DNA from: Beroe forskalii
Taxonomy: Eukaryota > Ctenophora > Nuda > Beroida > Beroidae
Reading direction: 5' to 3'
DNA: 64,000 bases
Assembly: GCA_011033025.1 (NCBI GenBank)
Contig: WFMF01000212.1
Coordinates: 227,629-291,628 of the forward strand
This document shows, in pieces, positions 4,227 to 64,000 of this stretch. The position numbers and the translations under genes were made by a program. The number at the start of each line of letters is the position of its first letter. The stretch's first letter is position 1. The notes under the pieces are model-generated. The model worked only from the letters and a program-made list of their open reading frames with translations. It did no database searches and was not told the origin of the DNA.

Positions 4227-7200
4227 AAGATCCGGCTACCGAAGATGACGGGCGTGTTCAGCTCTACTATTAACATGTACCTGGAACGTATCTACCTGTG
4301 CTGGTGGGCCCGCTGCAAGGTATTATTTAGAGTTATTTAGAGTTCTGAGTTATTTAGAGTTATGAGTTATTTAGAGTTCTCAGTTATTTAGAGTTCTGAG
4401 TCATTTAGAGTTCTGTGTTATTCAGAGTTCTCAGTTATTTCGAGTTCTGAGTTATGTAGCGTTCTGAGTTATTTAGAGTTCTGATTTATGTAGAGTTCTG
4501 AGTTATTGAGAGTTCTGAGTAATTTAGAGTAACATGCTGGACAGAATTTATAACAAAGTAGTGATACAATACCAAAGCATTTTATGAAATTCCAATACTT
4601 CGACTGGACAATTGGCAGGTTTTGGAGAATCATGCGTGTTACAATGTATAGGGTTTCTCATTACTCACCTCCTCATCCCTTGCAGATTATGGCACTGAAG
4701 CCACCTCAGCGAGAGAACGTGAGGGTGGCGTTAGCGGCTCACGATGCCTTCAGAGGAGAGCTCAGCTCCCACCCCTCCCTTGTGGTGAGTTGACAGCCCC
4801 CCCCCCTCTCAGCTCCCACCCCTCCCTTGTGGTGAGTTGACAGCCCCCCCACCCCTCTCAGCTCCCACCCCTCCCTTGTGGTGAGTTGACAGCCCCCCCC
4901 TCAGCTCCCACCCCTCCCTTGTGGTGAGTTGACAGCCCCCCTCTCAGCTCCCACCCCTCCCTTGTGATGAGTTGACAGCCCCCCCCTCTCAGCTCCCACC
5001 CTCCCTTGTGGTGAGTTCACAGCCCCCCCCCTCTCAGCTCCCATCCCTCCCTTGTGGTGAGTTCATAGCCCCCCTCTCAGCTCCCACCCCTCCCTTGTGG
5101 TGAGTTGACAGCCCCCCCTCTCAGCTCCCACCCCTCCCTTGTGGTGAGTTGACAGACCCCCCTCTCTCAGCTCCCACCCCTCCCTCGTGGTGAGTTGACA
5201 GCCCCCCCTCTCAGTTCCCACCCCTCCCCTTGTGGTGAGTTGACAGCCCCCCCTCTCAGCTCCCACCCCTCCCTTGTGGTGAGTTGACAGCCCCCCTCTC
5301 AGCTCCCACCCCTCCCTTGTGGTGAGTTGACAGCCACCCCCTCAGCTCCCACCCTCCCTTGTGGTGAGTTGATAGCCCCCCCCTCTCAGCTCCCACCCCT
5401 CCCTTGTGGTGAGTTGACAGCCCCCCCTCTCTCTCAGCTCCCACCCCTCCCTTGTGGTGAGTTCACAGCCCCCCCTCTCCCAGCTCCCACCCCTCCCTTG
5501 TGTGGTGAGTTGACAGCCCCCTCTCAGCTCCCACCCCTCCCTTGTGATGAGTTGACAGCCCCCCTCTCAGCTCCCACCCCTCCCTTGTGATGAGTTGACA
5601 GCCCCCCCTCAGCTCCCACCCCTCCCTTGTGGTGAGTTCACAGCCCCCCCCCTCTCAGCTCCCACCCCTCCCTTGTGGTGAGTTGACAGCCCCCCCTCTC
5701 AGTTCCCACCCCTCCCTTGTGGTGAGTTGACAGCCCCCTCTCAGCTCCCATCCCTCCCTTGTGGTGAGTTCATAGCCCCCTCTCAGCTCCCACCCCTCCC
5801 TTGTGGTGAGTTGACAGCCCCCCCCCTCTCAGCTCCCATCCCTCCCTTGTGGTGAGTTGACAGCCCCCCCCCTCTCAGCTCCCACCCCTCCCTTGTGGTG
5901 AGTTGACAGCCCCCCCTCTCAGCTCCCACCCCTCCCTTGTGGTGAGTTGACAGCCCCCCCTCAGCTCCCACCCCTCCCTTGTGGTGAGTTGACAGCCCCC
6001 CCTCTCAGCTCCCACCCCTCCCTTGTGGTGGTGACAGCCCCCCTGACTCCCACCCCTCCCTTGTGATGAGTTGACAGCCCCCCCCCTCTCAGCTCCCACC
6101 CCTCCCTTGTGATGAGTTGACAGCCCCCCTCAGCTCCCACCGCTCCCTTGTGGTGAGTTCACAGCCCCCCCTCTCAGCTCCCACCCCTCCCTTGTGGTGA
6201 GTTCACAGCCCCCCCCTCAGCTCCCACCCCTCCCTTGTGGTGAGTTGACAGACCCCCCCTCTCAGCTCCCACCCCTCCCTCGTGGTGAGTTGACAGCCCC
6301 CCTCTCAGTTCCCACCCCTCCCTTGTGGTGAGTTGACAGCCCCCCTCTCAGCTCCCACCCCTCCCTTGTGGTGAGTTCACAGCCCCCTCAGCTCCCACCC
6401 CTCCCTTGTGGTGAGTTGACAGCCCCCCCTCTCAGCTCCCACCCCTCCCTTGTGGTGAGTTGACAGCCCCCCCTCTCAGCCCCCTCCCTTGTGGTGAGTT
6501 GACAGCCCCCCTCTCAGCTCCCACCCCTCCCTTGTGTTGAGTTCACAGCCCCCCCTCTCTCAGTTCCCACCCCTCCCTTGTGGTGAGTTGCCCCCCCCCT
6601 CTCAGCTCCCACCCCTCCCTTGTGGTGAGTTGACAGCCCCCCCTCTCAGCTCCCACCCCTCCCTTGTGGTGAGTTGACAGCCCCCCTCTCAGCTCCCACC
6701 CCTCCCTTGTGGTGAGTTCACAGCCCCCCCCTCTCAGCTCCCACCCTCCCTTGTGGTGAGCTGACAGCCCCCCCTTCAGTTCCCACCCCTCCCTTGTGGT
6801 GAGTTCATAGCCCCCTCTCAGCTCCCACCTCCCTTGTGGTGAGTTGACAGCCCCCCCTCTCAGCTCCCATCCCTCCCTTGTGGTGAGTTGACAGCCCCCC
6901 CCTCCCCAGCCCCCCCCAGCTCCCACCCCTCCCTTGTGGTGAGTTGACAGCCCCCCTCTCAGCTCCCACCCCTCCCTTGTGGTGAGTTGACAGCCCCCCT
7001 CTCTCAGCTCCCACCCCTCCCTTGTGGTGAGTTGACAGCCCCCCTCTCAGCTCCCACCCTCCCTTGTGGTGAGTTGACAGCCCCCTCTCAGCTCCCACCC
7101 CTCCCTTGTGGTGAGTTGACAGCCCCCTCAGCTCCCACCCCTCCCTTGTGGTGAGTTGACAGCCCCCCCTCTCAGCTCCCACCCCTCCCTTGTGGTGAGT

Positions 7201-10200: not shown

Positions 10201-12406
10201 ATGGTAAAAAGACGAAGTAAGACTGTCAATACTTTTTGTGCCTCTTCCTTCTCGACAAACTTGAGCACTTATAGTTCCAGACGAGGTTACAATATCAGCT
10301 TGTTCCGAATTAAAAAGCTCTCAATTTAAAGATGAGGCTCAAATTATCAAAAAAATCTGCCACATCTATAATTCTAGAACTGTTATTTGTGCACATGGAT
10401 CGGTCGATAAAAACGCGTGAAAAGGCTGCAATTTCGACAGAAATTCTATGAAAATTAAATTGCGGAGGCTGTAATATGCGCGTCTTTATCAATGCCTTCA
10501 TCAATCCAATAATGAGCACACATACGGTTAGCTGCCACATCAATTCAAACAGTCGATAACGACGGTCAATTTAATTTCCGAGGTCACGAACGAGGCTCTT
10601 AGTCCCAGACATGACTATTATCAGCTTGTTCTCTCAATTTAAAGATGCTGTCACTTTTTATAGCTGCCACATCTATTACAATCAATAACAATAATAACAA
10701 TCAATGTAACAATATTTCAAAGGTCGAGCACGAGCCAAAGTAGCGTAAGTTCAGTGACGTAATTATCAAGATTTACAGTATTAACTTTAAGTACTTTGAA
10801 TCGGAGTATTTGATGAATATCAAGTAATTGAGCCAGCTATTAGTATTATCATCAGTCCTCACTTTCTCAACACGTGTTTCAGAGCACAGGGAAGCCGCTG
10901 GCCCTAGAGAAGCTGCGTCTCAGGAAGAACTACATCGAGTCTAACCACTTTGACGCTACTCAGCTGCTGTCTGCAGCCCACGGACAGGAGGTCTACTTTG
11001 CAGGCCCCATCAACAGACTCAACAGGAAACATGTCGTGGAGAGGTAAGTGGTTGGTGGTTGGTTAGAGGACCAAGAGTCCAAAAGTTCCACTGATTATTT
11101 TCACCTAAATTGTTGCTACTCAGATCTCATATTTTGAAAATATCTTCACTCTTGTAATATCATTCATATGAGCCCTAAACTCACCTCTTCCGTAGGAATA
11201 ACGTTGTTCTGACCGACAAAGCTCTGATATTCCTGACCAGCAAGTTCGAGCTGTACCCCCAGAAAACTATGTTCCTACAGAACTGCAGATCTGTCAGCCT
11301 GAGCAACCACGTGGATACCATGTGTGTAGTGCACCAAGCAGAGGTAGGCGTTACCAGGTGGATACCATGTGTGTGGTGCACCAAGCAGAGGTAGGCGTTA
11401 CCATGGTAGCTGAGTGGTAGTGTGGTAGCCTTGGTAACCACTTACCATGGTTACCAAGTGAAACTGTGGTAACCGTTGTTGCTAATTACCAACTAGAACA
11501 TGTTATGGTTGATGATGATTAGCTAGGTTACCATGGTTACCATGACAACCCATACCCTGCAGGCTGGTAAGGACATGGTAATAGACCTTGGTGTGACTGG
11601 TATCTACCACACCCTCCCTGACTATGTAGCTAGGTTACCATGGTTACCATGACAACCCATACCCTGCAGGCTGGTAAGGACATGGTAATAGACCTGGGTG
11701 TGACTGGTATCTACCACACCCTCCCTGACTATGTAGCTAGGTTACCATGGTAACCATGACAACCCATACCCTGCAGGCTGCCGGCTGGTAAGGACATGGT
11801 AATAGACCTTGGTGTGACTGGTATCTACCACACCCTCTCGACTATGTAGCTAGGTTACCATGGTTACCTTGACAACCAATACCCTGCAGGCTGCCGGCTG
11901 GTAAGGACATGGTAATAGACCTTGGTGTGACTGGTATCTACCACACCCTCCCTGACTATGTAGCTAGGTTACCATGGTTACCATGACAACCCATACCCTG
12001 CAGGCTGGTAAGGACATGGTAATAGACCTTGGTGTGACTGGTATCTACCACACTCTTCCTGAGTTCGTGGCTCGGCTCTACTTAGCCTGTAAAAACATGG
12101 GTAATAGGATCCAAGTCAACGTCTACCTCGAACGGATACGATATAACAACTCCCGGAAAGCTAATGTGTTCGACGAACTGAGTTTCAGGTGGGTGCGGTG
12201 CTCCTTTGCAAAGTTATCAACGAATTTTTCATTGCATTTACTCAGGATTCTCTTTGAGTTCGTATGGTAGTATTTTCTTAACTCGTAACTTTTCATTTTT
12301 CAGTGCAAAGAAGGACAAGCACAGCAAGTTAAAGCCGGGTACTCCAATCTGTCAGTTGAAGAACAAGGTTGTAATTTACCACGGGGGACGCGACTTCCTC
12401 CACTAG
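4227..12406 (+). CDS. Class I myosin-type TH1 tail, six 3'-terminal exons
   Basis: Exons 4227-4319, 4686-4784, 10883-11043, 11196-11343, 12004-12188 and 12304-12406 join in consistent phase to a TAG stop. The first gives KIRLPKMTGVFSSTINMYLE then RIYLCWWARCK, and the second IMALKPPQRENVRVALAAHD then AFRGELSSHPSLV. These follow the start of the myosin-I tail homology domain, where family members read ELKRIFHLW..., then SELFK.KK..YP.SV. Exons 3-4 match the core TH1 strand pattern (INRLNRKHVVERNNVVLTDK, ALIFLTSKFELYPQ). TH1 binds acidic membrane phospholipids and links actin motors to membranes. About 207 residues are visible and no motor or IQ exon lies within the 1.1 kb upstream. Either the motor is beyond the window with the F-box gene nested in its intron, or this is a tail-only gene. 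Introns 1, 2 and 4 carry splice-site-bearing tandem repeats, and the donor of exon 4 is duplicated. Confidence 0.72.
4320..4531 (+). repeat. 17-bp tandem repeat starting at the donor of myosin-tail exon 1
   Basis: The unit is approximately AGTTCTGAGTTATTTAG, about twelve imperfect copies. The array starts directly at the exon 1 donor (AAG, then GTATTATTTAGAG), so the first intron bases are part of the repeat. Confidence 0.8.
4761..9345 (+). repeat. ~4.6-kb minisatellite whose unit contains an exon end, a donor and an acceptor
   Basis: The period is about 42-45 bp. Each unit reads CTCAG, CTCCCACCCCTCCCTTGTG, GTGAGTTGACAG, then a run of 5-9 C. Span over period gives roughly 100-105 units, an estimate rather than a count. 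The first unit is the real 3' end of the second myosin-tail exon (coding HPSLV, then donor GTGAGT), so the array grew from an exon-intron junction. Between neighbouring units the C-run plus CTCAG forms a pyrimidine-rich acceptor, followed by 19 nt and another GTGAGT. The minus strand has four G-runs per unit (GGGAGGGGTGGGAG, then GGGGGG) and is strongly G-quadruplex-prone; the plus strand is i-motif-prone. Unit variants include GATGAG, GAGTTCACAG and shorter C-runs. Confidence 0.95.
9346..10882 (+). other. Remainder of myosin-tail intron 2
   Basis: AT-rich intron sequence between the minisatellite and exon 3. Apart from the small foldback element near 10401-10500 I see no coding or RNA feature. 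The real acceptor is CACGTGTTTCAG at 10871-10882. Confidence 0.6.
10401..10500. mobile_element. Small foldback/MITE-like element
   Basis: Left arm GATAAAAACGCG and right arm CGCGTCTTTATC are near-inverted copies around a short AT-rich centre with GGCTGCAATTT and AAATTGCGGAGGC as inner inverted pair. The GATAAAnACG arm recurs in elements at 13341-13501 and 19333-19462, so this is probably one dispersed family. Confidence 0.45.
11310..11400 (+). repeat. Tandem duplication of myosin-tail exon 4 end and donor
   Basis: The last ~32 coding bases of exon 4 and its donor (CACCAAGCAGAGGTAGGCG then TTACC) are repeated immediately downstream at about 11358-11400. Two nearly identical donors now lie 48 bp apart. 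Use of the second would add 48 nt in frame. Confidence 0.8.
11536..12060 (+). repeat. Four tandem copies of the acceptor and 5' half of myosin-tail exon 5 upstream of the real exon
   Basis: Units of 107-114 bp each carry ATACCCTGCAG followed by coding sequence for AGKDMVIDLGVTGIYHTLPD. Acceptor-like sites end at 11562, 11669, 11776 and 11889, and the real one ends at 12003. Two copies have an extra GCTGCCG at the exon start. The upstream copies end in an intronic GTAGCTAGG tract and then stop codons, so they are pseudo-exons and not a repeated protein domain. Confidence 0.85.
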
Positions 12407-38419: not shown

Positions 38420-38597
38420 GAGTTGACGGATTTAATGGAGGTCACATTTTATTTGCACATTCTCGGTTTGACGAGGTTATAACCACATTGAGAACTTTGA
38501 CCTCAGTTTATCAGTCAACAGATTTTATTTTTCATCCATACTTGCACTACTTGGTCTCACGACCTCATCAATATTTCCTTGTGTCTGATCTCTCTAA

Positions 38598-39625: not shown

Positions 39626-39632
39626 CCTCACT

Positions 39633-40943
39633 ATGACCGCGAGCACTCCCTTTGGTCCCTACAGCACGGCCCCAGTTCCCTACAACACGCACGTGGACCA
39701 ACTGTTCGGGATGCTCTGTGTCTTCTCCTTCCTGATAGGAACTATTGGTAACTCTGTAGCGCTGTCCCAGTTCCTGAAGAAGAAGAAGGATGTGCCCACC
39801 ATCATCTACATAGCTGCTGTGGTGGTTGACATCACCATCAGCATCCTGGTCCTGCCTATAGCTGTCTCCCTCTACGCGGACAGAGAACGCATGATCTTCT
39901 CCAACTCTTCCTTCTGTGATATCTGGGCCTTCTTCTGGACCACCCTCCTGCGGATGTCTGTGTTTGTGGTGGCCGTGTTGTCACTCTCCAGGGCCTACTC
40001 CCTCGCATTCCCCTTCAGCAGGGTCAAGAAAGGAGTGATTATTGGCATCCTGGTGATTGGGTTGCTAGGCAACACCCTGGGGACGAGCATTCCCTTCTGG
40101 TTCGGGAAGCACCACCACTACTCTAGAGCTAGTCCGGGTTGTAACGTAGTGGATACCATGAGTCACAAGACCGTGTCTGACATCATGACCTCACTGGATT
40201 GGCTGGGAAGTGTGGTTCCTGTAGTGGTTATCCTGGCTAGCTTCCTGGTGACGATATGGAAGATAAAGGAGAAGACTGTGACAGTGATGAGGGTAGAGGG
40301 GAGGAGGATGGGAGGCAAGAGGAGGGCTACAATCACCATCAACATCTTTACAGGTGATTAGATCCTTCATAATTTAATATTAGCTTTAATGAGGAATAGC
40401 TGATTATGTCACAACCGAATCAACCAATCCCGATTTAAGTTATCCGTACATTTTATGTTTCGAATTGGATGAATGATCTTATCAACATTTAGGTAACCGG
40501 CCCTTATTTCAGGCACGTTCCTGTTCTTCAACCTGCCCGCTGCCATCATCTTCCCTCTGTACACGTTCAACCCTCAGATCCTACCCTGGCCGGACAGCAT
40601 CTACCTGATCTGCTACATGTACATCATGGTAGTTCCCCTGAACTCCGCCACCAACCCCCTCATCTACTTCTGGAGAATGGAGCACCTCCGGCCCACCTGG
40701 TTCAGAAGAAGAACCTGCAACTCCACCGCCCGCGGGCTGTACTCCACCACGCGGGACCTGGGGCTCTCCCACCCCTACCTGATGTCCCGCCAACTGACCG
40801 CCCTCACTCGGAGCAGTCTCAGGCCTTACTCCAAGTCCAGTGCGCGGAACAGGCACTTGTCTAGAGTCATCGTGGCGGATGAGATGACTGTGGTTATGCG
40901 GGAGGGAGGCGACAAGCAGGAGGAGTTGAAGACGGTGCAGTGA
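39633..40943 (+). CDS. Class A orphan GPCR, copy 2
   Basis: Exons 39633-40353 and 40513-40943 give 383 residues. By my reading only one residue differs from copy 1 (position 93, Ser here and Ala there), although many synonymous sites differ. All motifs described for copy 1 are present, including SRA in place of DRY and NPLIY in TM7. The duplicated donor of copy 1 is absent; exon 1 ends at one site (ACAG, then GTGATTAG). The near-identical protein with silent changes indicates purifying selection on both copies or recent conversion. The ATG lies 15 nt after the last CAG of the acceptor array. Confidence 0.85.
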
Positions 40944-46400: not shown

Positions 46401-46820
46401 GCCATTGCGATTCTTTTGCGTCCAAAATGAAGTCTCTACGACCTTCCTTGACCAAGTTACAAAAATCGCTCCTGTGATGGATCGCAAGGGCCCAAAAATC
46501 AGTTTTTCGCCCATAACTCAATTTGTGAGCGTTTTAGGGCATATGTTTATTAACAAGTTGTATATAAACATGGCCATTGCGCACATTTTGCACTAAAAGC
46601 AAAGTTTCTTCGACCTTCCTGGCCCGAGATACGATTTTTCGACCATGCGCTCCAATCGCAAAAATGGGCGTGGCCAAAAATGGGCGTGGCCGTCAGATAA
46701 AAAATTGGCGACAAGTTCAGTTTTGTTCCTTGGGGTCTGAAATGCCATATCCCGTTGAGAAATCGCCGTGCTCAAACAACGCCAACGGATTTAGAATATC
46801 GACCAAGTCATCCCTGACTA
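43435..46820. mobile_element. 3.4-kb foldback transposon with internally repeated inverted arms
   Basis: Ends are TAGTCAGGGATGACTTGG and its exact inverse CCAAGTCATCCCTGACTA, with ATC on both sides as a possible 3-bp target duplication. The arms (43435-44450 and 46130-46820) are built of ~165-bp subrepeats, about five on the left and three on the right. They share GTCGTAGAGACTTTG, GCGCAATGGCCATGTTTATA and ATATGCCCTAAAACGCTCAC. The 1.7-kb middle has no intact ORF and carries a SINE. It is inserted only in segmental copy 2. Confidence 0.85.
45515..45887 (-). mobile_element. SINE-like retroposon, copy 1, in the foldback transposon
   Basis: On the minus strand this ends in a 13-A tail. ATCGAAAGAC is duplicated exactly at both sides (45505-45514 and 45888-45897), the mark of LINE-mediated insertion. 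The body shares with the copy at 59.4 kb the segments GGGGCGCCCCTCCGAAGATT, GACTACCATGATCCCTTGG and AGCTCTCC/GGAGAGCT. A pol III B-box-like GGTTCCAGTC is present but poorly placed, so the parental RNA is unknown. Confidence 0.8.
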
Positions 46821-47203: not shown

Positions 47204-50056
47204 ATGGAAACTGACGGCTCTGCCCCCCTGGGAGATGTGTACTCGGAGCAGTGGAAAGCTCTGAGTGGGTGGTTCCTTGGCCCCCGGGCTGAGAACAGGG
47301 ACGTTTTCCTGGACCTGTTCTCTGAGGTGTTTGAGAAGCATGTGGAACTGAGGAACAACTACTTCCCTTCAGACCCGGAGTACATCACGCAGGAAATGAA
47401 GTCTTCTCAGGCATACCATGCCGAGGTAGCGGACTTGAGACACCAGCTACACCAGATGCAGGATCAGATGAGGGGGAGTGTACCATTCTTCTCACCTCGC
47501 TACCAGGCCCACATGTGCTGGGATACCACCCTGCCTGCCCAGCTGGGCTACATGGCAGCCATGCTGTTCAACCAGAACAATGTGGATTCTGCAGCCAGCC
47601 CCGTTACCACCCTCTTCGAGCAGAAAGTGGGGCAGCAGCTATGCGACATGTTGGGGTATAACATCCACTCCTCCCAGAAGGAGCCGGTAGCGTGGGGTCA
47701 CATTACTTGTGGGGGGTCTATTGCTAACATTGAAGCTGTGTGGGCTGCAAGGAACATGAAGTTTGTACCTCTGTCTGTGAGAGCTGCCCTCCTCAATAAG
47801 GCTGCTAAAGACTTCCTCTCTGATGATCAGATAGAGATGGGACTGAGCACTACAGTGCTGGTTTTCAGGAAGGAGTCAGGAAAGAGAGAAGCGGTCCCTC
47901 TCAAGGACTGCTCCACATGGCAGCTCCTTAATGTGGATGTGGATGAGATCTGTGATTTAGCTGAGACGGTGGCTAGCAACATGGCACGAGTTGGAGCAGT
48001 GGATGAGACTCGGTTTAGCGAGTTGGTTGAACACGAGGGCGTGATGAGTAAAGGACTCTTTAACTTCATGAAGCAGCACGAGATGAAGTACTCGCCCGTC
48101 TACACTGCCCCTGCAAACAACCACTACTCATGGCCTAAAGCTGGCACTCTGTTAGGCCTGGGCTCTGATGCCCTCATCCCCATTAACCTTGACAAGGATT
48201 TCAGACAGAAAGTAGCCCACCTCAGGGAGGAATTGGAGCGCTTACTGGAGCAGGAAGTCCCTGTGATATCTGTAGCTGCAGTGATGGGATCTACCGAGGA
48301 ATCAGCCGTCGATCCTCTGAAAGATATCTACGATTTGAGGGAGGAGTTCAAAGGAAGAGGTCTCAACTTCGCTCTGCTGGCTGACGGCGCCTGGGGTGGA
48401 TACTTCAAGACCATGCTCATTGGGTCTCCTGGGAAAGACAAAGTCAGGAAGCACGGAGATGACAAGAGAAAGTTGGAGGGGTTCGTGCCGTACTGCGAGC
48501 TGAGTCCGTACGTTGAGTACCAATACAACCACATCCAACTCGCTGACACCATCACCATAGACCCCCACAAGTCCGGCTTCTGCCCCTACCCTGGCGGTGC
48601 TCTCTGCTACAGAAACGGTAAAATGCGCTACCCCATCGCCCTCTTCCACCCTGAGGTGTTCCACGGGGCTGACGATCCCACCATGGGAGTGTACGGGATT
48701 GAGGGATCGAAGCCAGGCGCTGCCCCGGCCGGGATCCTCATGTCTCACAACGTGATTGGACTGAGCAACAGGGGATATGGCAGGATCCTGGGACAGTGCA
48801 CTGCCACTGCTAAGCTCTTCTACTCACTGTGGCTCACCATCGCCAGAGAAGACGATCCCTTCGTGTGTGTACCGCTTCAGGAGCTACCGGAGGGATGGGA
48901 CATGGAGAGTGCTAGGAAGCTTGTGGAGGAGAAGATCGCTTACAAGAACATGCGGGAAGTTTACAAGAACAAAGAAGCGAAACAGTTCCTAAAATGCTGT
49001 GGTCCTGACACCATGATCAACACTTTCGTGGTAAATTTCAAGGGTAACTCGTGTGTCAAGAAAGCCAACAAGCTACAGCTCGCTCTGTCGGACGCAATGA
49101 ACGTGTTCGTGGGTACGGATGCCAGCAGAGTGCCTCTAATGGTAATGCAGTCTGGGCTGGATGCCAAGAAGCACGGGGAAGGACTGAAGATCTTCAAAGA
49201 AAAGGCTGGGCTGGATCAGGACGATGAGAACCTGAATGTGATGGTGAATTCCTGCATGAACCCCTGGCAGTGGAATGAATCTATCTTCATGATCGGGGAC
49301 CTCTTCAGACAGTTGGTCCTTGACTGCATGGGGAGAGTTGAAGACCAGCCCGCCACCCATAGGTTCTTCCTAGCCCACCCTAAGATGGGAGAGGATGACT
49401 CCATCTTTCTGGAGTACATGAGCTGCAACGACCTCCCAGAGCACAGGTACCAAGTATCTGTCAAGATGACAACCTGCTCAGTCGCTGACACTAAGGTACT
49501 CCGAGAGTATATCAACTCCTGCCACAGAAAGGACGCAGCTGTCATCTTCGAGACTGTGACTCCTGAGACAGAACACGATAGCACTCCCAACCTTTACAAC
49601 CTGCTTCATCTCAAGGACTGGGATGGAAAACTTAGGATGAAGCTGGTAAATGACGCTGATGGGAACTCCGTGTGTCTTAAAGTCCTGGACATCCCCCGAT
49701 ATCGCAGACTCGACATGTCCACACACGTCTCCTACCCGGCCAAGCAGCAGTATTTCCTCTACGGGGACTCCACTCGGACCATCCTCTCCCACGTGATCTC
49801 CAAACTCCCGGACTTCCAGCACACAGCCTGTCTCACCACTCGGCCCCACTCGCTGACAGAGACCATGCTGGGGCTCGGAGTGGTCGCTGAAGTGGAGGGA
49901 GTGGAGGGGTACCCACTCGAGGCCGAGGGGGAGATGAAGAACCCGCTGCAGAGGAAGAGCTATGACGTGACGTTCAAGGGAGAGCTCTACGCTACGCTGC
50001 ACACCACTATTCATGTAAAGGACACAATCTACTTCAATGAGATTTCTAAGGAATAG
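47204..50056 (+). CDS. PLP-dependent amino-acid decarboxylase, bacterial tyrosine-decarboxylase type, copy 2
   Basis: Again 950 residues in one exon. I count 11 amino-acid differences from copy 1, mostly in the variable N-terminal third and in the C-terminal extension (for example THRFF for THKFF and PETEHD for PEPEDD). Catalytic K456, D394 and H307 are unchanged, so both copies should be active. The start at 47204 directly follows a strong acceptor, CTAACCCCCCTCTGAATTTC then AG, so the message probably begins with a 5' UTR exon or a trans-spliced leader. The two genes share a ~360-bp stretch with only one nucleotide change around D394 and K456, which suggests gene conversion. Substrate and product are inferred as for copy 1. 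Confidence 0.9.
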   Translation: METDGSAPLGDVYSEQWKALSGWFLGPRAENRDVFLDLFSEVFEKHVELRNNYFPSDPEYITQEMKSSQAYHAEVADLRHQLHQMQDQMRGSVPFFSPRYQAHMCWDTTLPAQLGYMAAMLFNQNNVDSAASPVTTLFEQKVGQQLCDMLGYNIHSSQKEPVAWGHITCGGSIANIEAVWAARNMKFVPLSVRAALLNKAAKDFLSDDQIEMGLSTTVLVFRKESGKREAVPLKDCSTWQLLNVDVDEICDLAETVASNMARVGAVDETRFSELVEHEGVMSKGLFNFMKQHEMKYSPVYTAPANNHYSWPKAGTLLGLGSDALIPINLDKDFRQKVAHLREELERLLEQEVPVISVAAVMGSTEESAVDPLKDIYDLREEFKGRGLNFALLADGAWGGYFKTMLIGSPGKDKVRKHGDDKRKLEGFVPYCELSPYVEYQYNHIQLADTITIDPHKSGFCPYPGGALCYRNGKMRYPIALFHPEVFHGADDPTMGVYGIEGSKPGAAPAGILMSHNVIGLSNRGYGRILGQCTATAKLFYSLWLTIAREDDPFVCVPLQELPEGWDMESARKLVEEKIAYKNMREVYKNKEAKQFLKCCGPDTMINTFVVNFKGNSCVKKANKLQLALSDAMNVFVGTDASRVPLMVMQSGLDAKKHGEGLKIFKEKAGLDQDDENLNVMVNSCMNPWQWNESIFMIGDLFRQLVLDCMGRVEDQPATHRFFLAHPKMGEDDSIFLEYMSCNDLPEHRYQVSVKMTTCSVADTKVLREYINSCHRKDAAVIFETVTPETEHDSTPNLYNLLHLKDWDGKLRMKLVNDADGNSVCLKVLDIPRYRRLDMSTHVSYPAKQQYFLYGDSTRTILSHVISKLPDFQHTACLTTRPHSLTETMLGLGVVAEVEGVEGYPLEAEGEMKNPLQRKSYDVTFKGELYATLHTTIHVKDTIYFNEISKE

Positions 50057-50939: not shown

Positions 50940-51186
50940 GTAGGTCTCCCATATAAACGGGAGCCTTCATTATCTAGGACAATGACGTCACTCAGAAAAA
51001 TATAATTAAGTGCACCTAGCGCTTAAAGGACTAGGGTTAGGGTCAGGATTAGGGTCAAGATTTGTTAGGGTTAGGGTTAGGATTAAGGTTAGGGTTTGGT
51101 TAGGGTTATGGTTAGGTTTAGGATACAGAAAAATTGACGTTTAGATCTGTGACGTCACTCAGAGCCGTTTATATGGGAGAGATACC
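50940..51186. mobile_element. 247-bp MITE enclosing a TTAGGG-like tract, 9-bp target duplication
   Basis: Arms TCTCCCATATAAACGG and CCGTTTATATGGGAGA are exact inverses. A CRE TGACGTCACTCAG lies inside each end (50983 and 51150), in direct orientation apart from the palindrome. CAAATCGCG is duplicated at 50931-50939 and 51187-51195, a 9-bp duplication as for Mutator-like elements. The centre (51027-51120) is a degenerate GTTAGG/TTAGGG array. Confidence 0.85.
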
Positions 51187-51195
51187 CAAATCGCG

Positions 51196-53076: not shown

Positions 53077-56000
53077 ATGCGTAATTTGCTATGTCAGTGC
53101 CAAAGAGTGGTCCAGACTAATACCCCTCTAGATTATCTCTCAGTTGACCAAGATTTCAATACAATTTATGGAAGTTATAACAATGAAATAGTCAACCTCA
53201 ACATTGAAAAAAAAGAAGTAAGCTAGAGTTTTTTAATTGTATTTATGACCATGAAATCATCTCAAGAAACTGCCATAACATTCTATTGTTTTATTAACAT
53301 TCTATTGCTTTGTTAGTTGAAGTCTTTATCATAATTTAACAATCAATGATATATCCAGGTAACTTTACATCATGCTCTTGATGACATCGAAGCTAAGATA
53401 TCAGACATACATTGGTTGCCATCTCATAGAGCTCTCTTTGTGGTTGTGAATGCCACTACTCTAGCTCTCTTCCACCCAGACACTACCAATCTTGAGGAGG
53501 TATTTTATGAATACATCAACTATTCCTAAAATAACTGAAGTTTTGGTATATTGATCTAATTGATGTACTATCTCAGGATTGTAAGATTTAATCCCTCATT
53601 GACACAGTAAATGTTGAAACAATAGATTTAAGATTTTCAGCAGTGAAAGCTAACACATACACAAATTTTAAATTATCAGATGAAATAGTTCTTCAGAAAA
53701 ATCCAGTGTGACACACTATTCTCTCATTTCATTGATTTACATGTACGAGTTTGTTGGTATGCACAAATAATACACAAAACCATCTCTCTTCAGGTAGCAG
53801 CTATTGATGAGGGTGTATCATGTGCAGAGTGGGCACCAGATGATGGAGTTTGTGCCATTGTAACAGAAGCAGGTATGGCTATGAAGTCTTAGGAGTGAAC
53901 TATTTTATATTATGGTGTGCACTTTAAAATCTTCAATCATGATTATTATGGAAAAGATAGAGCTAGATACTTGATTGGGAATCATCTTATTGAAACTGAT
54001 TAGTGATAAGCATTTTTTGTGTTAACTTCTCAAACCAAGGTATCATCAATTTTTTCAGGTAATTTGATGTTGATATCAGAAGAATTTGATTGCATTAAGA
54101 GTGTGAATGCCAGACCAGAGGACTTTGGTTCTGAACACCAAACACAGGTAACTTTTGTGCACAAACCTACAATAATATGTTGAAATACATGTGTAAATGT
54201 ATACTCTTGGTGAGTTATGCACATTTCTGCTATGATTGTTACTTGAAATAGATCAGCTACTCAATCAATAATTCCAAGGAAACAGAGGAATTTAAAGTTG
54301 AGGCTGCGGTGTATCTCATAACATGATACAATATTACTGATAGACAGCTAATGATAATGATAGCAGCTGATATGATGTTCTGGTCATCCTCTTCCAGGTT
54401 GGTTGGGGTAGCAAGGAGACACAGTTCCATGGCAGTGCTGGGAAAGCAGCCTCCCAGCAACCTGTCTTCTCTACCCCCACGCCAGTTTCCCACACAGACA
54501 CTCTCGAAACTCGTGTCAGTTGGCGGGGAGATGGACAGTACTTTGCTGTCTCCACAGTCGATACCAGAGATGACAACCAGTTCAGGTGAGTGCTGAGTAG
54601 CAGCCATTTATTTCTAATGGTACTGATTTTGCACAAACGGGGTGAATTTCTTTAAACTGATATTTTCTCTCGATTATAAGTAATGACTTGCTAACTTGTG
54701 TTTATTTTCAGGTACTGTGAAACCTGAAATTTAATAAAAGGCATGATAAGACCCACTGACCATCACAATATGTACCAGGGTGATCAGGATGTGGACCCGG
54801 GAAGGAGTCCACACTTCCACCAACGAACCTACTCCTGGCCTGGAGGACTCACTGTGTTGGAGGCCCAGTGGGAACCTCGTCACCAGCACTGCAACCCACA
54901 ATGAACAGCATCAGGTGAGACATCTTGGGACGTTTGCTTTTGAGTTCTAAAAAATGAGGAATTTAGGAAATCGTTCAAACTACTGATTTGATGGAAGACT
55001 TACAATTGAAATAACAAAGCGTTTTATTGATATATTGCATTATTTACTCTTTTAGTTTTACCAATAATCAAATAATAAAAGTCGTGTGTTTGAGTCCCCT
55101 GACCCCTCTTCCAGTAAAGTGTGTTTGAGTCCCCTGACCCCTCTTCCAGTAAAGTGTGTATGGGTCCCCTGACCCCTCTTCCAGTAAAGTGTGTATGGGT
55201 CCCCTGACCCCTCTTCCAGTAAAGTGTGTATGAGTCCCCTGACCCCTCTTCCAGTAAAGTGTGTATGAGTCCCTGACCCTGAGTGCAGTAAAGTGTGTAC
55301 CCCTGCCCCCTGTTAAAAACCCTGACCCCTCTTCCAGGTGGTATTCATGGAGCGTAACGGGCTACGACACGGGGAGTTTCCCCTGACCCTGAGCGTGCTG
55401 GCAGTGGTCAGCAGCAACGTGCTGGCAGTGGTCTATGAGGGAGAGAAGCAGTGTCATGTGATGCTGTACACTGCTTCCAACTACACCTGGCAGGTTAGGG
55501 GACTAAGGGGGGCAGAGCAGGCCTTTTCGGGAAAACAAATCAGGCAATTTTCATTTAACTTTGACACCAATTAGGAAATTTCATGATGATTGCTGACTTG
55601 CTGGCCTTGACACCAGCTTGAACCGGTTTGAACTGATGCCACTTTTGCACTTTATATTGCCATCAGTTTTCTTTGACATCAGTTCACACTGGTGCCACTG
55701 TACATTGCCGCCAATACAACTTAAAATAACCTACTTTCAAGCCATTCAATCATTTCAGCTGAAGCAGCATTACACATACGACAGTTCCAGTATCACGTTC
55801 ATGTGGGACCCTCTTGATGAGTTTAGATTCCATCTTGCTCTCAGTGATAGGTAGAAACGTTAGACACGGTTTGTTATTTGCTTTTGTTTATCTGTGGTTT
55901 GACTAAGATGCTCGTTATAATTTCATTTATTACCGTACCTATTGGTGTATTCATAATTATATTAACATGTTAATTAAGCTTCAAGATGTTCCCTAAATCT

Positions 56001-59000
56001 CATTTTTTATAATCAATTCCCTGCAGGTACATCTGTTATCAGTTGACAAGCAGGGTACTGACGTGTTCCAACACCACCACACTAGTCATTGACAACAAAC
56101 AGGTAACTACACGTCGTCTTGAAGTGTATCTCTTTTATTGAAAATATTGAAAATTTGATGCTCATCATCATATCGGTAGTCGGTATTGTATGCTTAAAAT
56201 TCTAATTTAGAACGTCCCCTCATCTAAAATCAAAACTATCCAAAGCCTTATTTCATACAGGTTTAAAGGCTCTAAAGAATAGTCCTAGATGTCTCAAATA
56301 AAATGAAATATTGTAACATTTAAAACTTTAGAGCTGTAATCGAACGATTCAGAAACATCTTAGATTTGTACTTTCGAAGAATCGTGTTTGTCTGTATTAT
56401 GCCAAGGAAACTCTGACCACTCTCTTGTATGCTTGTTTGGTAGTGTCCCACTAACTAGACTGGTATTGGTTGTTTGTTGATGTATGATTTGTAACAATGA
56501 ACATGTGCATGCACCCTTGCTTCTATTCCTTACTACTGTATAGACATAGTACTATAACCTTATATTAGGACCAAGATGACCTCTTAAATGCTTATATACT
56601 ATCAATTAAACTCCTCTCTGTCCCTTACTGCGCCCATAATAAGTATTTAATAGACTCATTACACTATTACATGCCTAGTATCTACATGCTGTGTCCGTGG
56701 CTTATAATGTGCTGGCAGCGAATCAAAGCACAGAGCTCCATGCTTGCAGCAGTAGCAGGTCAACATGCCCTGTGATCTACTGAAACTCTCCCCCCTCACC
56801 GGTCCTCACTGGCTTCTAGTCACAGCATCAGTGCTGTGTCTTTGTTGCAGGGTCCCCACTCGCATACAGCTGCATACAGAAATAGACACTCACTGAAGGA
56901 CTGAGTCAGGTAGTAAGTTAATGACTTACCAGGTCAATAAGTCAATAAGTCACGTTCGTCGTCAGGTAAGTCGCTAGAATACTTACCTCGGGAGGTAAAC
57001 CACTTCCCTCTCTTCAGGTGAACACCACTCCAATGAGTACCATGTGTATACCTCCCCCCATGTCTTACTCCCAACTCGTCACCCCCTCTACCTGCAACTC
57101 AGTCAGTTGTCATGGAGACGACGCTTGGCTCATCTGTAACGACAGGTCAGTCGGGTTTAGGATTGGATATATGATCTGAGATTTGCTTGAACTGCCTAAA
57201 ACGTGATGCTGCCTAATGTATATCACACGGTAGCATTTCTGAAATGAACATCACTCGGCATCACTTCAATGTTATCGTGAAATGACCTACGTGTTGAAAC
57301 ATGACAACATTTTCACATTTTATAGTCCCTATCATAAAACTGACTTGCAGTTCTTGGCAGTGTTACCACTTCTTCTCAGGACATTCCAGCGATTTAACAA
57401 GGTCTCCTACACGCCCCCCGGGGAGACCGCCCCGGACGAGTCCTACTCTCTGGAGACGGAGTTCCCTCTGGAGAGCTACGCGGAGATCCGGCACCCACTC
57501 ATGATTAGTCCCACCAAGGCCTTCTGTGTCACCCTCGTCAATGATGTGGACGCTATTCTCACGGTAAGAAACAGGCTGTTACGTATTAGGGATAGTTAAG
57601 ATCTGCAGTTAGTGTTAGAAGTTAAAATCGAGATTTCCAAAGCATCGGGTGCATAAGATTCAAAGCCTATGATTATGACGCCTATAGAAATAACCTATAG
57701 AAATCACTCTCCAATATAGAGTTAACATAGTGATAGTTTAGTAGTTTATCAACCATTTTACAGTTTCAAAGAGTAATCGTTTATTACTATTCTTGGAATC
57801 TATTACGCTAAAAAAGACCAAATCACCCTCCCTAACCACACCCTACCTTACCAGACCTTACCTTACCAGACCCTTCCTTACCAGACCCTACCTTACCAGA
57901 CCCTACCTTACCACACCCTACCTTACCAGACCTACCTAACCAGACCCTACCTTACCAGACCCTACCTTACCAGACCCTATATTACCAGACCCTACCTAAC
58001 CAGACCCTACCTTACCAGACCCTACCTTACCAGACCCTACCTTACCAGACCCTACCTTACCAGACCCTACCTTACCACACCCTACCTTACCACACCCTAC
58101 CTTACCAGACCTTACCTTACCAGACCCTACCCTACCACACCCTACCTTACTACCTTACTAGACCCTAGCTTACCAGACCCTACCTTACCAGACCCTACCT
58201 TACCAGACCCTACCTTACCACACCCTACCTTACCACACCCTACCTTACCAGACCTTACCTTACCAGACCCTACCCTACCACACCCTACCTTACTACCTTA
58301 CTAGACCCTAGCTTACCAGACCCTAGCTTACCACACCCTACCTTACCAGACCCTACCTTACCAGACCCTACCTTACCACACCCTACCTAACCAGACCCTA
58401 CCTTACCACACCCTACCTTACCAGACCTACCTAACCAGACCCTACCCTACCACACCCTACCTTACTACCTTACTAGACCCTAGCTTACCAGACCCTAGCT
58501 TACCAGACCCTACCTCACCAGACCCTACCTTACCAGACCCTACCTTACCAGACCCTACCTTACTAGACCCTACATTACCAGACCCTACCTTACCAGACCC
58601 TACCTTACCAGACCCTACCTCACCAGACCCTACCTTACCAGACCCTACCTTACCAGACCCTACCTTACCAGACCCTACCTTACCAGACCCTACATTACCA
58701 GACCCTACCTTACCAGACCCTACCTTACCAGACCCTACCTCACCAGACCCTACCTTACCAGACCCTACCTTACCAGACCCTACCTTACTAGACCCTACAT
58801 TACCAGACCCTACCTTACCAGACCCTACCTTACCAGACCCTACCTCACCAGACCCTACCTTACCAGACCCTACCTTACCAGACCCTACCTTACCAGACCC
58901 TACCTTACCAGACCCTACCTTACCACACCCTATCCTCCTGCAGCTAGAGCTATCAGATAAGGAGGTGTTCGTAGCGTCCTGCATGACCCTGGAAGACCAC

Positions 59001-62000
59001 GCCACGGTAGCTAACATGGTACGACACCCCGAGAGTGGTACGGTTGTGGTGCAGATGTACTCGGGGGAGCTGTTTGAGCTGAACGATGGGATGCTGGAGC
59101 CTTGGGGAAACGAAGCTATGCGGGTACGTGTGCTGCTGCCAGGGGGGTTTCACTAGATTTGAGCATACGTATTGCATGTGATTTGTAGTGCATATAATAC
59201 AAGCTGCGGTAAATTGAGTGATCCATCTAGGCCAGTAGGTGGGTCTGGGGAAATGAGGCTATGCGGGTACGTACATATTCCCATGTTATTCCTCTGGGGC
59301 AAACACCTGGAGGTTTTACTCTGTTTGAGTATACTTTTATGTGTAATTTGTAGTGCAAATACTAGCTGCAAATCTTGCAGTTTTTTTTTTTTTTTTTTTT
59401 TTTTTTGCGAAATCCACTGACCACACGCCACCACTTACGCGAGTGACGGTGGCAGCTCTCCATTGCAGAGAGCTCTGCTGGGACCCATCTGGATGCACTC
59501 TAGCAGGCTAGTAACCCCTTACCAGGGTGCCAGATGGTGGTGCTCCTGGAAGCACCAAAAGGTCGGGGCGCCCCTCCGAAGATTGACTACCGTGATCCCT
59601 TGGTAAGAATGGCTTGAAGGCCTGGTCCCTCTAACACTGGGCTCTGTGAGGAGTCCACCAGGTTGAGTTGTGCAGGACTCGAGCTGGTTGTTCTGGTGAA
59701 GCGGCGTTAGATGCGGGGTTATGTGCAGGGTTGTGGTTGAAGAGTAGTTGCTTTTCAAGGTAGAATTAAAGAGAAGATGATGATGTGTGAGTGATTCTCC
59801 GTTCTATGTTTATACTTATTTTTGATTGAAAATAATAAAGTGTGTTCTCATGGCGATACTCTGGAAACAATGCGCACAACTAGGTAGAAGACTGCAACAG
59901 TGCTTTCTACTCCAGAGTTTCTGATGCCTGCTGAGAAAATTGGTAAGAACAAAATGATATTACCCCATGAGAAGGCCATAATGGCATCATGACGGTCATC
60001 ATGAAGACATCATGACAGGATGGGGAGATCACAGTGTCTTGAGACCTTAATGTGACTCTAGGGATGAAAAATCTTTAGAGAATGGCCGCTTGGTCCTAAT
60101 TCTCCTGTTATCCTAGAGTTCTATTAGAGTCAGGGGTGTGATGTAATATCTTATCTACAAATTTTATTAAAGCAGTACTCATCAATGAAAAATCAATCAT
60201 AGCCTTCTCATTGCACATGTGTTAGACGATGATATGGTAGACAACCAGACTTTAGGAATGCCCTCAACAGGACATTAAAATGGCCCAAGAAGCAGGGCTA
60301 ATATGCTAACGTATTTTTTAAAAGTGTAGACCTTTTTTGGATGCCACCCTGAAGAGGCCATCCGAGATAGTGCTTACTAAGTATACTTTTCGATGTGGTA
60401 GTCTAACAAACTGCGTGCTTGCAGAGAAAGTGGTAACGATGTGGTAGTCTAACAAACTGCGTGATTGCAGAGAGAGTGGTAAAAATGTGGTAGTCTTACT
60501 GCGTGATTGCAGAGAGAGTGGTAACGATGTGATAGTCTAACAAACTGCGTGATTGCAGAGAGAGAGTGGTAACGATGTGATAGTCTAACAAACTGCGTGA
60601 TTGCAGAGATAGTGGTAACGATGTGGTAGTCTAACAAACTGCGTGTTCTAGAGAGAATGGTAACGATGTGGTAGTCTAACAAACTGCGTTATTGCAGAGT
60701 GGTAACAATGTGGCAGTCTAACAAACTGCGTGATTGCAGAGAAAGTGGTAACGATGTGGTAGTCTAACAAACTGCGTGCTTGCAGAGAGAGTGGCAGCGA
60801 TGTGGTAACTGGTAGTCTAACAAACTGCGTGCTTGCAGAGAGAGTGGTAACGATGTGATAGTCTAACAAACTGCGTGATTGCAGAGATAGTGGTAACAAT
60901 GTGGTAGTCTAACAAACTGCGTGATCGCAGAGAGTGGTAACAATGTGGTAGTCTAACAAACTGCGTGATTGCAGAGAGAGTGGTAACGATGTGGTAGACG
61001 GTAGTCTTACTGCGTGTTCCAGAGAGAGTGGTAACGATGTGGTAGTCTAAAAAACTGCGTTATTGCAGAGTGGTAACGATGTGGTAGTCTTACAAACTGC
61101 GTGTTTGGAGAGGATTTGGTACAGATGTGGTAGTCTAACAAACTGTGTGATTGCAGAGTGGTCACAATATGGTAGTCTAGCAGACTGCGTGATTACAGAG
61201 AGAGTGGCAGCGATGTGGTAGTTTTATGTACTGCGTGTTCTAGAGAGAGTCGTAATGATGTGGTTGTCTAACAAACTGCGTGATTGCAGAGACATTGGTA
61301 ACGATGTGGTAGTCTAACAAACTGCGGGTGTAGAGTATTTAAGTATGTATTAAGCGTGTTTTTGAGTATGTATTTGGTCCGCTTAAGCGGCTGTTCGGTT
61401 GCCCATGAACATGCTCATGGGGGCTTGGTTCCCATTGCGGGTTGATCCAATTTGATGGATTCTATCGGGTGGTAAGGTTCTTTTCAGGTCCAAAACCTGA
61501 GTCAGGGAACCAGCAAGACCTGGAGTCCCCAGCTGGGTGGAGTCCAGCTGAGGGAGGACCAGTTTGTATGATAGCTCATAGCAGATTGTATTCGCAGTAA
61601 TTGCACCTTGTACACTAAGTTACACAAAATGTACTTCATTTTCCTTACAGTATCTGTGAACTAGTGTGGTAGTGTATCGATTGTTCAGTTCCTATAAGTC
61701 TATTAACTGCTTGCTTCAGATGTATCAGGAGTCCGGTCCAGAACTCATGTATTTTTGTGGTTTCTGGTTATTTTGTCACTCTTTCCATCTATTTCTGGTT
61801 ATTTTGCCACTTTTTCCATCCATTTCTCTCCCAACTTCAATCCTGAGTTCCTCTCAGCCGCCAGCTACTGCTAAATATGAAGTTATATATCATTAGACAT
61901 GTTCGTTTTTAGAATGTCAATTGACGTTATATAAAAAGCTACCCATTAACACTTGGTAGGTGTTAATAAGTCAGGAGTTTTTGACGTGGTAATGAAAAGT

Positions 62001-64000
62001 GCTCTTGCAGTTCGAATGTTAGCACACAAATACACTTTACAGCGTTACATCGAATCATCTGGAATAATAAATCTCAACTTTTACAGAACTGCGAATTTGA
62101 TATTTTGAATTCAAATAGATTCAATAATCTATTTAAATTAATAGCTAAATTGGATTATTGCTTCAAATATTTGAATTCTTGCTAACTGCAAAAATACCCC
62201 CTTTATTTCAATAAAACATATTCGATATACATGGAACTTGGAGGAATGTCTAGCATTCTAACATGGATACATCACCATCGGTTAGATCACTTTATCTTAA
62301 GTTGGTATGTGGCATGTGTTACATATCAATACATACCAACACATAGCGTTAATCAAGTAAAATAATACACCACATTATGTTGTGTATACTTGACTAAAGA
62401 AACCGTGGTAATATGAGTAATTATTCGTGGTGGACGGTGACGTAATCGTTATACCATCTTGCCATGAATGGTTTTGTATGGACAGTGCTCAAATTTGACC
62501 TTATATGGTATTATGTGTAATTTGTAATCGCAAACTTCAATGAGAGATAATTCTGTCCTTCTGTGACTGAAAAAATATATATCAGCCATGTAACAAAGCC
62601 TCATTCACTGTGGCAATAATCGATAAATAACTAACACTATTAAAGATAACTGAAAAATACCTTACTGAAAATAATGGCACTTAACAAGTGGACACTCTTC
62701 GCACCGGGGAATTCCTTTCGAGACATATCTTGTTTCCAAGTATCAAACAGATACGAAATTTGGGGATTTGTTATTTTTGTACACCTATTCGAAAAATATC
62801 CCCAATTTTCGTACAAAATTTCGATCTTATGTCTTATGTAAATTTATCTCATAAGGTATCTTATTCTCTGGGCTAACAAAACCTCCTCATTTCAACAGGA
62901 GTGTTCAGTTTTCAGTGAGATGTTACTGGCCGTGTTCAAGGAAGAAATGGTGGTTATTGGGCGAACTAACGACAATCACTTGTTTATGGATACTCGGCTC
63001 TGGAGTTACGACTGTACTTCCTTCTCCCTACATAAGACAGTTGGTTCAAGGTTTCAGTAGATGAAATCGCTAAAAATCAAAATCATCATTAAATCTTAAT
63101 TTATTGATACGTTGTGAGTAATCATTTACAATTTTATCAATGTTCGCCCCAAATATTACTCTAATATCACCTTTCTAGAACTAGATTTCTAATCTAGAAC
63201 TAGATTTTCTAGATCAACATCAGAAAGTCAGTATATTCCTACATAAGACGCATCTCCTGTTAACCTCCAACTCTCATACTCTGACATGTGTAGACCTGGA
63301 CCAGCCTAGTCGAGTAGCAAGGAACGCTGAGGGGTCGTGGACACTGGGGTGAGTTTTATGGGGGTGGGGGTAGTGGATACTGGGATGAGTTGTACGGGTG
63401 TCGTGGGGGTCTTGGGGGGGGGGGTAGTGGATACTGGGGTGAGTTGTAGGGGGTAGTGGATACTGGGATGAGTTGTACGGGTGTCGTGGGGGGTCTTAGG
63501 GGGGGTAGTGGATAATGGGGTGAGTTGTAGGGGGGTAGTGGATACTGGGATGAGTTGTACGGGTGTCGTGGGGGTCTTAGGGGGGGGAGTGGATACTGGG
63601 GTGAGTTTTATGGGGGGATGGGGGACATGGGGTGAGTTGTAGCCGGGGAAGTGGGGGTCTTAGGGGGTAGTGGGGTGAGTTATAACTTATAAGGGGGTTA
63701 CTGGGGTTAGTTGTAGAGGGGGGCACTGGGGTGAGTTGTAGGGGGACACTGGGGTGAGTGTTTCTACTCTGGAGGTTTTGATTTTCTGGAATTTCACATG
63801 ATGTCACCTACCTACGTCCAAGTTAGATGTTTAGATATCTAATAAATTTAAAAGCTTGAGCAAAAACTACATAATAGAACTCCACTTACGAATCATTGGA
63901 ATTGGGGATATTATATTCAGCACTTTTACCGAACTGCTTGGATGCTAACACAGATTTACTTTAGATCCGGACCTTGGAACGAGGATCCCGCCTCGTTATC
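53077..64000 (+). CDS. ELP1: Elongator complex protein 1 (ELP1/IKAP), N-terminal WD40 half, partial
   Basis: Exons 53077-53217, 53359-53499, 53794-53872, 54059-54147, 54398-54585, 54779-54914, 55338-55493, 55759-55850, 56027-56102, 57018-57145, 57380-57563, 58944-59123 and 62899-~63040 join in phase. Diagnostic matches to animal ELP1 are VGWGSKETQFHGSAG, VSWRGDGQYFAVS, MWTREGVHTSTNEPTPGLED, VVFMERNGLRHGEF, FMWDPLDEFRFHL and IPPPMSYSQL. A further exon (~63239-63349) gives LLLTSNSHTLTCVDLDQ, and a last one from 63964 gives IRTLERGSRLV. About 600 residues of the usual ~1300 are present; the TPR half lies to the right. ELP1 scaffolds Elongator, which modifies wobble uridine of cytosolic tRNAs. 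The start has AG 9 nt upstream (ATCCTAG). The phase between the ~63239 exon (ends phase 2) and the last exon (needs phase 0) does not fit, so one small exon or another donor is missing from my model. Confidence 0.88.
55081..55337 (+). repeat. Tandem copies of the ELP1 exon 7 acceptor
   Basis: Five close and one diverged unit of ~37 bp read GTCCCCTGACCCCTCTTCCAG then TAAAGTGTGTATG. The true acceptor at 55337 is the last CCTGACCCCTCTTCCAG. Every unit is thus a full pyrimidine tract plus CAG. Confidence 0.9.
56103..57017 (+). other. ELP1 intron 9
   Basis: Unremarkable AT-rich intron. A short run of AAGTCAATAAGTCA-like repeats and GGTAAGT-like motifs lies at 56910-57000, just before the acceptor CCCTCTCTTCAG. 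Confidence 0.5.
57838..58935 (+). repeat. 15-bp minisatellite filling the ELP1 intron before exon 12
   Basis: The unit is CCTACCTTACCAGAC with CACAC, CTTACTAC and CTAGC variants, roughly 70 units by span. Higher-order blocks repeat. The array runs up to the real acceptor (TATCCTCCTGCAG ending at 58943) and forms its pyrimidine-rich upstream region. On the minus strand it reads as an open (VGSGK)n frame, which I regard as non-coding. Confidence 0.92.
59090..59380 (+). repeat. Tandem duplication of ELP1 exon 12 end, donor and intron start
   Basis: TTGGGGAAACGAAGCTATGC then GGGTACGT at 59103-59128 recurs as GGGGAAATGAGGCTATGC then GGGTACGT near 59246-59272. The following GATTTGTAGTGCA / ATTTGTAGTGCAAATAC segments also match. 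The second copy is a decoy donor with a partial exon. Confidence 0.75.
59381..59760 (-). mobile_element. SINE-like retroposon, copy 2, in ELP1 intron 12
   Basis: On the minus strand it ends in a 26-A tail (59381-59406 as T on plus). The body matches the copy at 45.5 kb in GGGGCGCCCCTCCGAAGATT, GACTACCGTGATCCCTTGG, GGTCCCTCTAAC and the AGCTCTCC / AGAGAGCTC pair. I could not find a target duplication, so the 5' limit near 59760 is approximate. Confidence 0.72.
60385..61335 (+). repeat. ~46-bp tandem array with acceptor-like units in ELP1 intron 12
   Basis: About twenty units read GTGGTAGTCTAACAAACTGC, GTGATTGCAG, AGAGAGTGGTAACGAT. Each contains a CTAAC branch-like motif about 18 nt before TTGCAG. 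No recognised exon adjoins it. Confidence 0.88.
61336..62898 (+). other. Rest of ELP1 intron 12
   Basis: 61370-61590 is GC-richer with small dyads (CCCATGAACATGCTCATGGG, GGTTCCC, CTGGAGTCC/GGAGTCCAG) and may be a decayed SINE. 62758-62818 has the GGGGATTT hairpin motif. The rest is AT-rich. The acceptor TCATTTCAACAG ends at 62898. Confidence 0.45.
63330..63765 (+). repeat. G-rich array of tandem donor sites after an ELP1 exon
   Basis: The first element is the end of the ~63239 exon and its donor (GGACACTGGGGTGAGTTTTA). About ten derivative units follow, such as AGTGGATACTGGGGTGAGTT then GTAGGGGGG. Each retains GGTGAGTTG or a close variant. The runs of G on the transcribed (plus) strand could form RNA G-quadruplexes. 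Confidence 0.88.

Follow-up and report, generated by a model that had tools for sequence, protein, structure and literature searches.

Tandem repeats at splice junctions of four genes in a 64-kb window resemble the mirage minisatellites of amphioxus

Tandem repeats that extend over exon–intron boundaries have been described in amphioxus, where passages of two papers place them in Adh3, in the globin genes BflGb6 and BflGb9, in TnC and in PGBD5 (PMC3087553, PMC3902484). According to these passages, both intron ends are hit and haplotypes differ in length; both papers credit the term 'mirages' to the amphioxus Adh paper, and a model of intron gain from mirages has been drawn for amphioxus (PMC3087553, PMC3902484). 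RT-PCR results given in the first of the two suggest that regular splicing is undisturbed by mirages (PMC3087553), and the word mirage is absent from the examined passages of the arrestin paper PMC5501109. In human CBS, the relevant passages of PMC2630376 list a 31-bp VNTR, c.1444_1467+7, with 16 to 21 copies, and the variant 844_845ins68, which duplicates the intron 7/exon 8 junction. The name c.1444_1467+7 we read as a unit of 24 exonic and 7 intronic nt. An excerpt of PMC4974935 reports that a duplication crossing an intron–exon boundary created a new intron, and excerpts of PMC2812944 report internal tandem repeats in human segmental duplications, some of them at exon–intron boundaries, with copy numbers that vary between paralogues. 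An earlier note on the DNA analysed here, made from the letters alone, knew of single repeats containing splice sites but of no genome in which this is the rule; the portions of the amphioxus papers cited above show that such arrays had already been published as mirages (PMC3087553, PMC3902484).

In the stretch of 64,000 nt analysed here (the window), we placed 44 splice junctions in four genes on the basis of reading frames, phases and homology; these genes, their junctions and the arrays described at them all lie on the plus strand. The 3′ part of a myosin-I-like gene, comprising its Myosin_TH1 tail, was modelled as six exon pieces at 4245–12406, and the joined exons match Pfam Myosin_TH1 (E 1.1e-14) with consistent frames and phases. 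Its junctions fall after 4319 (donor), 4685 (acceptor), 4784 (donor), 10882 (acceptor), 11043 (donor), 11195 (acceptor), 11343 (donor), 12003 (acceptor), 12188 (donor) and 12303 (acceptor). Two paralogous GPCR genes lie in paralogous blocks. Copy 1 (30153–31474) starts with an ATG at 30153 and has exons up to 30873 and again from 31044, joined at a phase 1 junction, and its stretch 30150–30908 matches Pfam 7tm_1 (E 4.3e-10); copy 2 (39633–40943) starts with an ATG at 39633, and start and stop codons were checked in both. The fourth gene is the 5′ part of ELP1 (Elongator complex protein 1) at 53077–64000, with 14 modelled exons and the start of a 15th. Its frames agree, and it matches PDB entry 8ptx (E 5.1e-53). 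Junction placement in ELP1 was guided in part by the human ELP1 layout and by the PDB comparison. Rfam and ARAGORN gave no matches in the window.

The ELP1 protein shares 35% identity with its human counterpart over 342 aligned columns, and in the PDB comparison it scores 183.5 bits against human ELP1 versus 153.6 bits against 6qk7, which we take to be a yeast protein; the TH1 tail of the myosin-I-like gene found no myosin match in PDB. Amphioxus proteins are expected to be closer to vertebrate ones than those seen here. Together, these comparisons suggest that the DNA may come from an animal evolving faster than amphioxus.

Several other features accompany these genes. An intronless PLP decarboxylase of ~950 residues is present in two copies (33363–36215 and 47204–50056) as part of a duplicated GPCR–decarboxylase block, with a DNA identity of 94–95% over the decarboxylase. 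Queried from 33387, a few codons past the start, copy 1 has the non-canonical aromatic amino acid decarboxylase 6ebn as its best PDB match (E 1e-140). Protein scans with the decarboxylase and with a reverse-transcriptase-like piece found no relatives in the non-eukaryote collections searched. Long inverted repeats at 43480–46790, both arms of which contain 173-bp tandem repeats, lie in the interval from GPCR copy 2 to decarboxylase copy 2; this copy of the block has ~3.6 kb there, the other ~0.3 kb. The structure resembles a DNA transposon whose subterminal ends are repeated. The DNA pattern of the 173-bp repeat had no match among the viral contigs or the (non-eukaryote) genome contigs searched. 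The minus strand encodes an F-box domain (Pfam E 2.2e-06) in an ORF at 2374–2793, and interstitial telomere-like TAGGGT repeats are found at 51032–51122.

TRF returned 61 rows, which were merged into 37 arrays with a period of at least 10 (shorter periods were dropped before counting), covering 12370 bp in total, with founder units of 1479 bp. For our main junction count, array ends were extended by at most one unit using a 24-mer map; counted in this way, the unit copies a modelled junction in six of the 37 arrays, and by TRF limits alone in five. The six are located at the donors of myosin-I-tail exons 2 and 4, the acceptor of its exon 5, the 5′ acceptor of each GPCR gene and the donor of ELP1 exon 14. 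Beyond these, two short duplications copy the donors at 30873 and 59123, and at the ELP1 exon 7 acceptor the intron side only is copied. Both 5′ and 3′ splice sites are affected in the myosin-I tail and in the GPCR pair, and donors in ELP1. Of the 16776 intron bases in the 21 modelled introns, 8419 (50%) belong to the listed arrays, a figure that leaves aside the array 53276–53315 (40 bp). The other 31 TRF arrays carry no modelled junction, and the statement of the earlier note that splice sites seed arrays 'throughout the window' was overstated. It had listed eight arrays with a copy of the adjoining junction, the one at 60385–61335 as probable: six of them do copy it, the array at 55081–55337 copies the intron side only, and the probable case lies off junctions. 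Its claim that arrays with different unit sequences occur at junctions of unrelated genes is borne out by comparison of the units, the consensuses of which differ by inspection between unrelated genes; the sole junction unit present at two loci is that of the paralogous GPCRs. Introner elements, which are near-identical copies at many unrelated sites, were considered and rejected, since the units of unrelated genes differ in the window. A search with the DNA pattern of the 43-nt unit gave no match among the viral contigs searched.

The largest array (4761–9350) lies at the donor of myosin exon 2, after 4784, where a unit of ~43 nt (24 exonic and ~19 intronic) is repeated in ~106 copies over ~4.6 kb, with 89% matches between the copies. 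Only the first donor is open, as 88 of the 89 exact GTGAGT sites lie behind an in-frame stop. The donor of exon 4, after 11343, is covered by a duplication of 2.1 copies of a 47-nt unit (11306–11403, within 11305–11450; 38 exonic and 9 intronic nt), in which use of the second donor would shift the frame. At the start of exon 5, with the junction after 12003, a 107-nt unit is present in five copies (11519–12067), and all four inner acceptors run into a stop ahead of the real exon. Myosin intron 4 (11344–12003) has the donor duplication at one end and the acceptor array at the other, with a remainder of only 68 nt. The array 4323–4530 ends 4 nt from a junction, without a clear copy of it.

At the 5′ acceptor of GPCR copy 1, with the junction after 30140, a 37-nt unit is present in 1.9 copies (30078–30149). 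The acceptor array of copy 2 (38586–39628, junction after 39617) has a unit of 36 to 41 nt, the longer variants of which include the start-codon context; TRF ends this array 25 nt before the junction, and the 24-mer map continues it across. The paralogues therefore differ in the number of acceptor copies, ~2 versus ~28. As these arrays are untranslated, the frame cannot pick the copy that is used. Exon 1 of copy 1 additionally carries a donor duplication of 30 nt (30861–30903), with donors after 30873 and 30903 that are both open and in frame, so that either could serve. Its junction score of 16/24 is equalled by 6% of shuffled positions, and the duplication is credible because the paralogue, GPCR copy 2, lacks it. 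Both repeats of copy 1 are additions to the earlier note. The alignment of the paralogous GPCR blocks is poor within the array (85% identity, with one 947-base end gap) and was used for small differences only. A 21-nt repeat by the GPCR stop codon also has unequal lengths in the two paralogues (31493–31701 versus 40938–41053), indicating that arrays change off splice junctions as well, and a further difference between paralogous arrays lies at 50087, off any junction.

In ELP1, 35-nt units at the exon 7 acceptor (55084–55337) copy the intron side alone: the unit contains the acceptor side CCCTGACCCCTCTTCCAG, the bases after the AG (TAAA...) mismatch the exon, the score at the junction is 14/24, and a stop follows each of the six inner acceptors. 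A pyrimidine-rich array of 75 copies of a 15-nt unit (57825–58932) ends 11 nt before the exon 12 acceptor and holds no clear copy of the junction; neither this array nor the one at 4323–4530 was part of the earlier note. The exon 12 donor, after 59123, lies in an old two-copy duplication (59098–59371) with its second copy near 59266, behind a stop; the score of this duplication is 17/24 at the junction itself and reaches 22/24 close by, and TRF does not list it. The intron 12 array (60391–61326; 20 copies of a 46-nt unit) was ruled out as a junction array, since it lies inside the intron and the nearest junction is 1268 nt or more away. Compared over 695 windows, its unit is most alike to a stretch in the interior of exon 12, with 17 identical positions out of 20, a likeness that is borderline given that 3 of 1000 shuffles equal it and 14 exons were tried. 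The presumed end of exon 14 carries a donor array with G-rich units of ~30 and 81 nt (63331–63754) and a donor, GG/GTGAGT, after 63348; the 10 later GTGAGT/ATGAGT sites all lie behind a stop. This donor is the least certain of our junctions because its phase 2 does not agree with phase 0 of the next recognisable exon. ELP1 intron 13 (208 nt) is flanked on both sides by an exact 12-nt direct repeat (63027–63038 and 63238–63249), seen in one of the 21 introns and in 0 of 500 and 1 of 5000 shuffles, and may be a recently gained intron.

A count per base gives no excess of junctions in repeats: a local copy of at least 18/24 was found at 6 of the 44 junctions versus 19% of all bases, a count dominated by the expanded arrays. 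In the founder-unit test, every array was instead counted once, as its founder unit, and then placed at random. Across the whole window, six of 37 arrays contained a junction versus 0.92 expected (p = 1.3e-4), and with genic placement 6 of 15 versus 1.44 (p = 0.0013). After removal of GPCR copy 1, which took out the two TRF arrays at 30078 and 30161, we observed 5/35 versus 0.88 (p = 0.001; genic 5/13 versus 1.32, p = 0.005), and with an additional TRF score of at least 100, 5/17 versus 0.76 (p = 0.0004; genic 5/11 versus 1.23, p = 0.003). By TRF limits alone (5/37), p was 0.0014 for the whole window and 0.0078 for genic placement; here, score cut-offs of 60, 100 and 150 gave p values from 0.0007 to 0.011, and a score of at least 300 gave 3/11 versus 0.62 (p = 0.018; genic 3/8 versus 0.94, p = 0.05). 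The strictest null barred purely exonic founder units and was applied to the TRF arrays of myosin and ELP1; the models lack the 5′ introns of the GPCR genes, so the arrays there were set aside, as was the 59098 duplication, which is absent from the TRF list. It yielded 4/10 versus 1.16 (p = 0.015) and, after removal of the uncertain array at ELP1 exon 14, 3/9 versus 0.88 (p = 0.04). The junction excess is moderate and its size depends on the null chosen, and the p values are optimistic because the window was picked after the pattern had been noticed. The proposal of the earlier note that arrays overlap exon borders beyond chance is thus partly supported: for founder units, at p = 0.015–0.04 under the strictest null, but not per base.

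These counts bear on a simpler explanation, namely that the repeats are ordinary intronic minisatellites which, making up half of the intron DNA in short introns, reach junctions by chance. We consider this somewhat unlikely: placement of founder units gave p values of 1.3e-4 to 0.05 in all versions run, and the usable copy is the outermost one wherever the frame decides, although the missing per-base enrichment, the 31 of 37 arrays without a modelled junction, the paralogue differences off junctions (31493 versus 40938, and 50087) and the p values of only 0.015 and 0.04 under the strictest nulls speak in its favour.

The arrays are probably minisatellites of the mirage type, in which duplications straddling a junction would be tolerated as long as the outermost copy splices, and would then expand within the intron. 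The reading frames are in line with this: where the coding frame decides, the predicted usable copy is the outermost one, with the donor duplication of GPCR copy 1 as the exception. A stop or a frameshift follows from the inner donors in four of the five donor cases tested, and in the largest array this applies to each of the 88 inner GTGAGT sites; in both coding acceptor arrays tested, every inner acceptor runs into a stop (4/4 and 6/6 sites). Such an array would start when a short tandem duplication by chance extends across a splice junction. Exon and intron would still meet at the outermost copy, the first at a donor and the last at an acceptor, so that the mRNA would be nearly unchanged; the inner copies would turn into intron, presumably a neutral change, and slippage or unequal exchange could then lengthen and homogenise the array there. 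Judging from the frames, the arrays seem to have lengthened introns without harm to the protein.

It is scarcely credible that the arrays are maintained by selection as decoys or backups for splicing, one of the ideas raised in the earlier note. Intact inner sites are numerous (89 exact GTGAGT in ~106 units, and 23 CTGCAG in ~28), and both dinucleotide columns are fully conserved in three of the seven arrays measured, but in those three at least 16 other columns tie with them. In the other four, at least one of the two dinucleotide columns falls under the unit mean, as for the first G of GTGAGT (0.89 versus 0.95) and the AG of the ELP1 intron 12 array (0.80 versus 0.92), and most inner sites result in stops. 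The GT and AG columns, at best tied with many others in the unit, thus lend no support to selection for decoy sites, and this conservation test is weak for arrays of five or six copies.

If mirage-type duplications were merely tolerated, no excess would be expected over the strictest null, and an extra bias towards junctions is therefore possible. Such a bias could come from a mutational hot spot, with R-loops, paused spliceosomes, or slippage or template switching at AG/GT or pyrimidine tracts seeding duplications at junctions. Part of the excess survives the barring of purely exonic units, and unrelated genes are hit at donors and acceptors alike, but the transcript-sense GC skew is mixed, at -0.46, +0.21, +0.26, +0.78 and -0.43 for donor repeats and -0.07, -0.78, -0.76 and -0.20 for acceptor repeats. 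We therefore see no common G-rich R-loop strand and hold a hot spot to be unlikely; a common R-loop cause, which the earlier note had suggested, finds no support in skews ranging from -0.78 to +0.78. Wrong expansion or joining of repeats during assembly is very improbable, as the units diverge (89% matches in the array of 106 copies) and repeats with two or five copies are short, even though the legend of Additional file 4 in PMC3087553 calls one amphioxus mirage aberrantly assembled in its draft version.

More speculatively, and with considerable doubt on our part, minisatellites could repeatedly originate at splice junctions in an animal lineage that evolves fast and is not amphioxus. In such a lineage, about half of the intron DNA of the genes seen would consist of repeats, duplications would sometimes yield new splice options or introns, such as the in-frame second donor of GPCR copy 1 and ELP1 intron 13, and a junction-linked mutational bias would add to tolerance. 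Should the pattern hold genome-wide, introns would have a simple way to grow, and possibly to arise, which could be followed by comparing paralogues and alleles. In a host other than a cephalochordate, mirages would have evolved by convergence or would occur more widely than the papers found suggest. For annotation, the inner copies call for caution, as they resemble splice sites and could give rise to false exons.

Compared with the amphioxus mirages, as far as the cited passages describe them, the arrays of this window share units that span the exon–intron boundary, occurrence at donors and acceptors, and a distribution over unrelated genes. Amphioxus mirages differ between haplotypes, whereas here the copy number differs between GPCR paralogues. 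Apart from Adh3, the amphioxus copy numbers given in these passages range from 2 to 7, in contrast to up to ~106 copies (4.6 kb) in the window; the host genes are also different, and the junctions were deduced here from frames and homology. The human CBS repeats likewise cross the boundary but are, in the passages of PMC2630376, single polymorphic loci, and with ins68, splicing takes the more distal site and an upstream exon piece is removed (PMC2630376). The duplication in the excerpt of PMC4974935 resulted in a new intron, whereas in this window existing introns became longer, with an intron gain no more than suspected, for ELP1 intron 13. In the human segmental duplications, the excerpts give an average of ~4 copies, with half of the repeats in coding sequence (PMC2812944). 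The kind of array reported here is thus already known, and what differs is its size, with ~106 copies, its occurrence in four genes of three unrelated kinds within one 64-kb window, and possibly the lineage.
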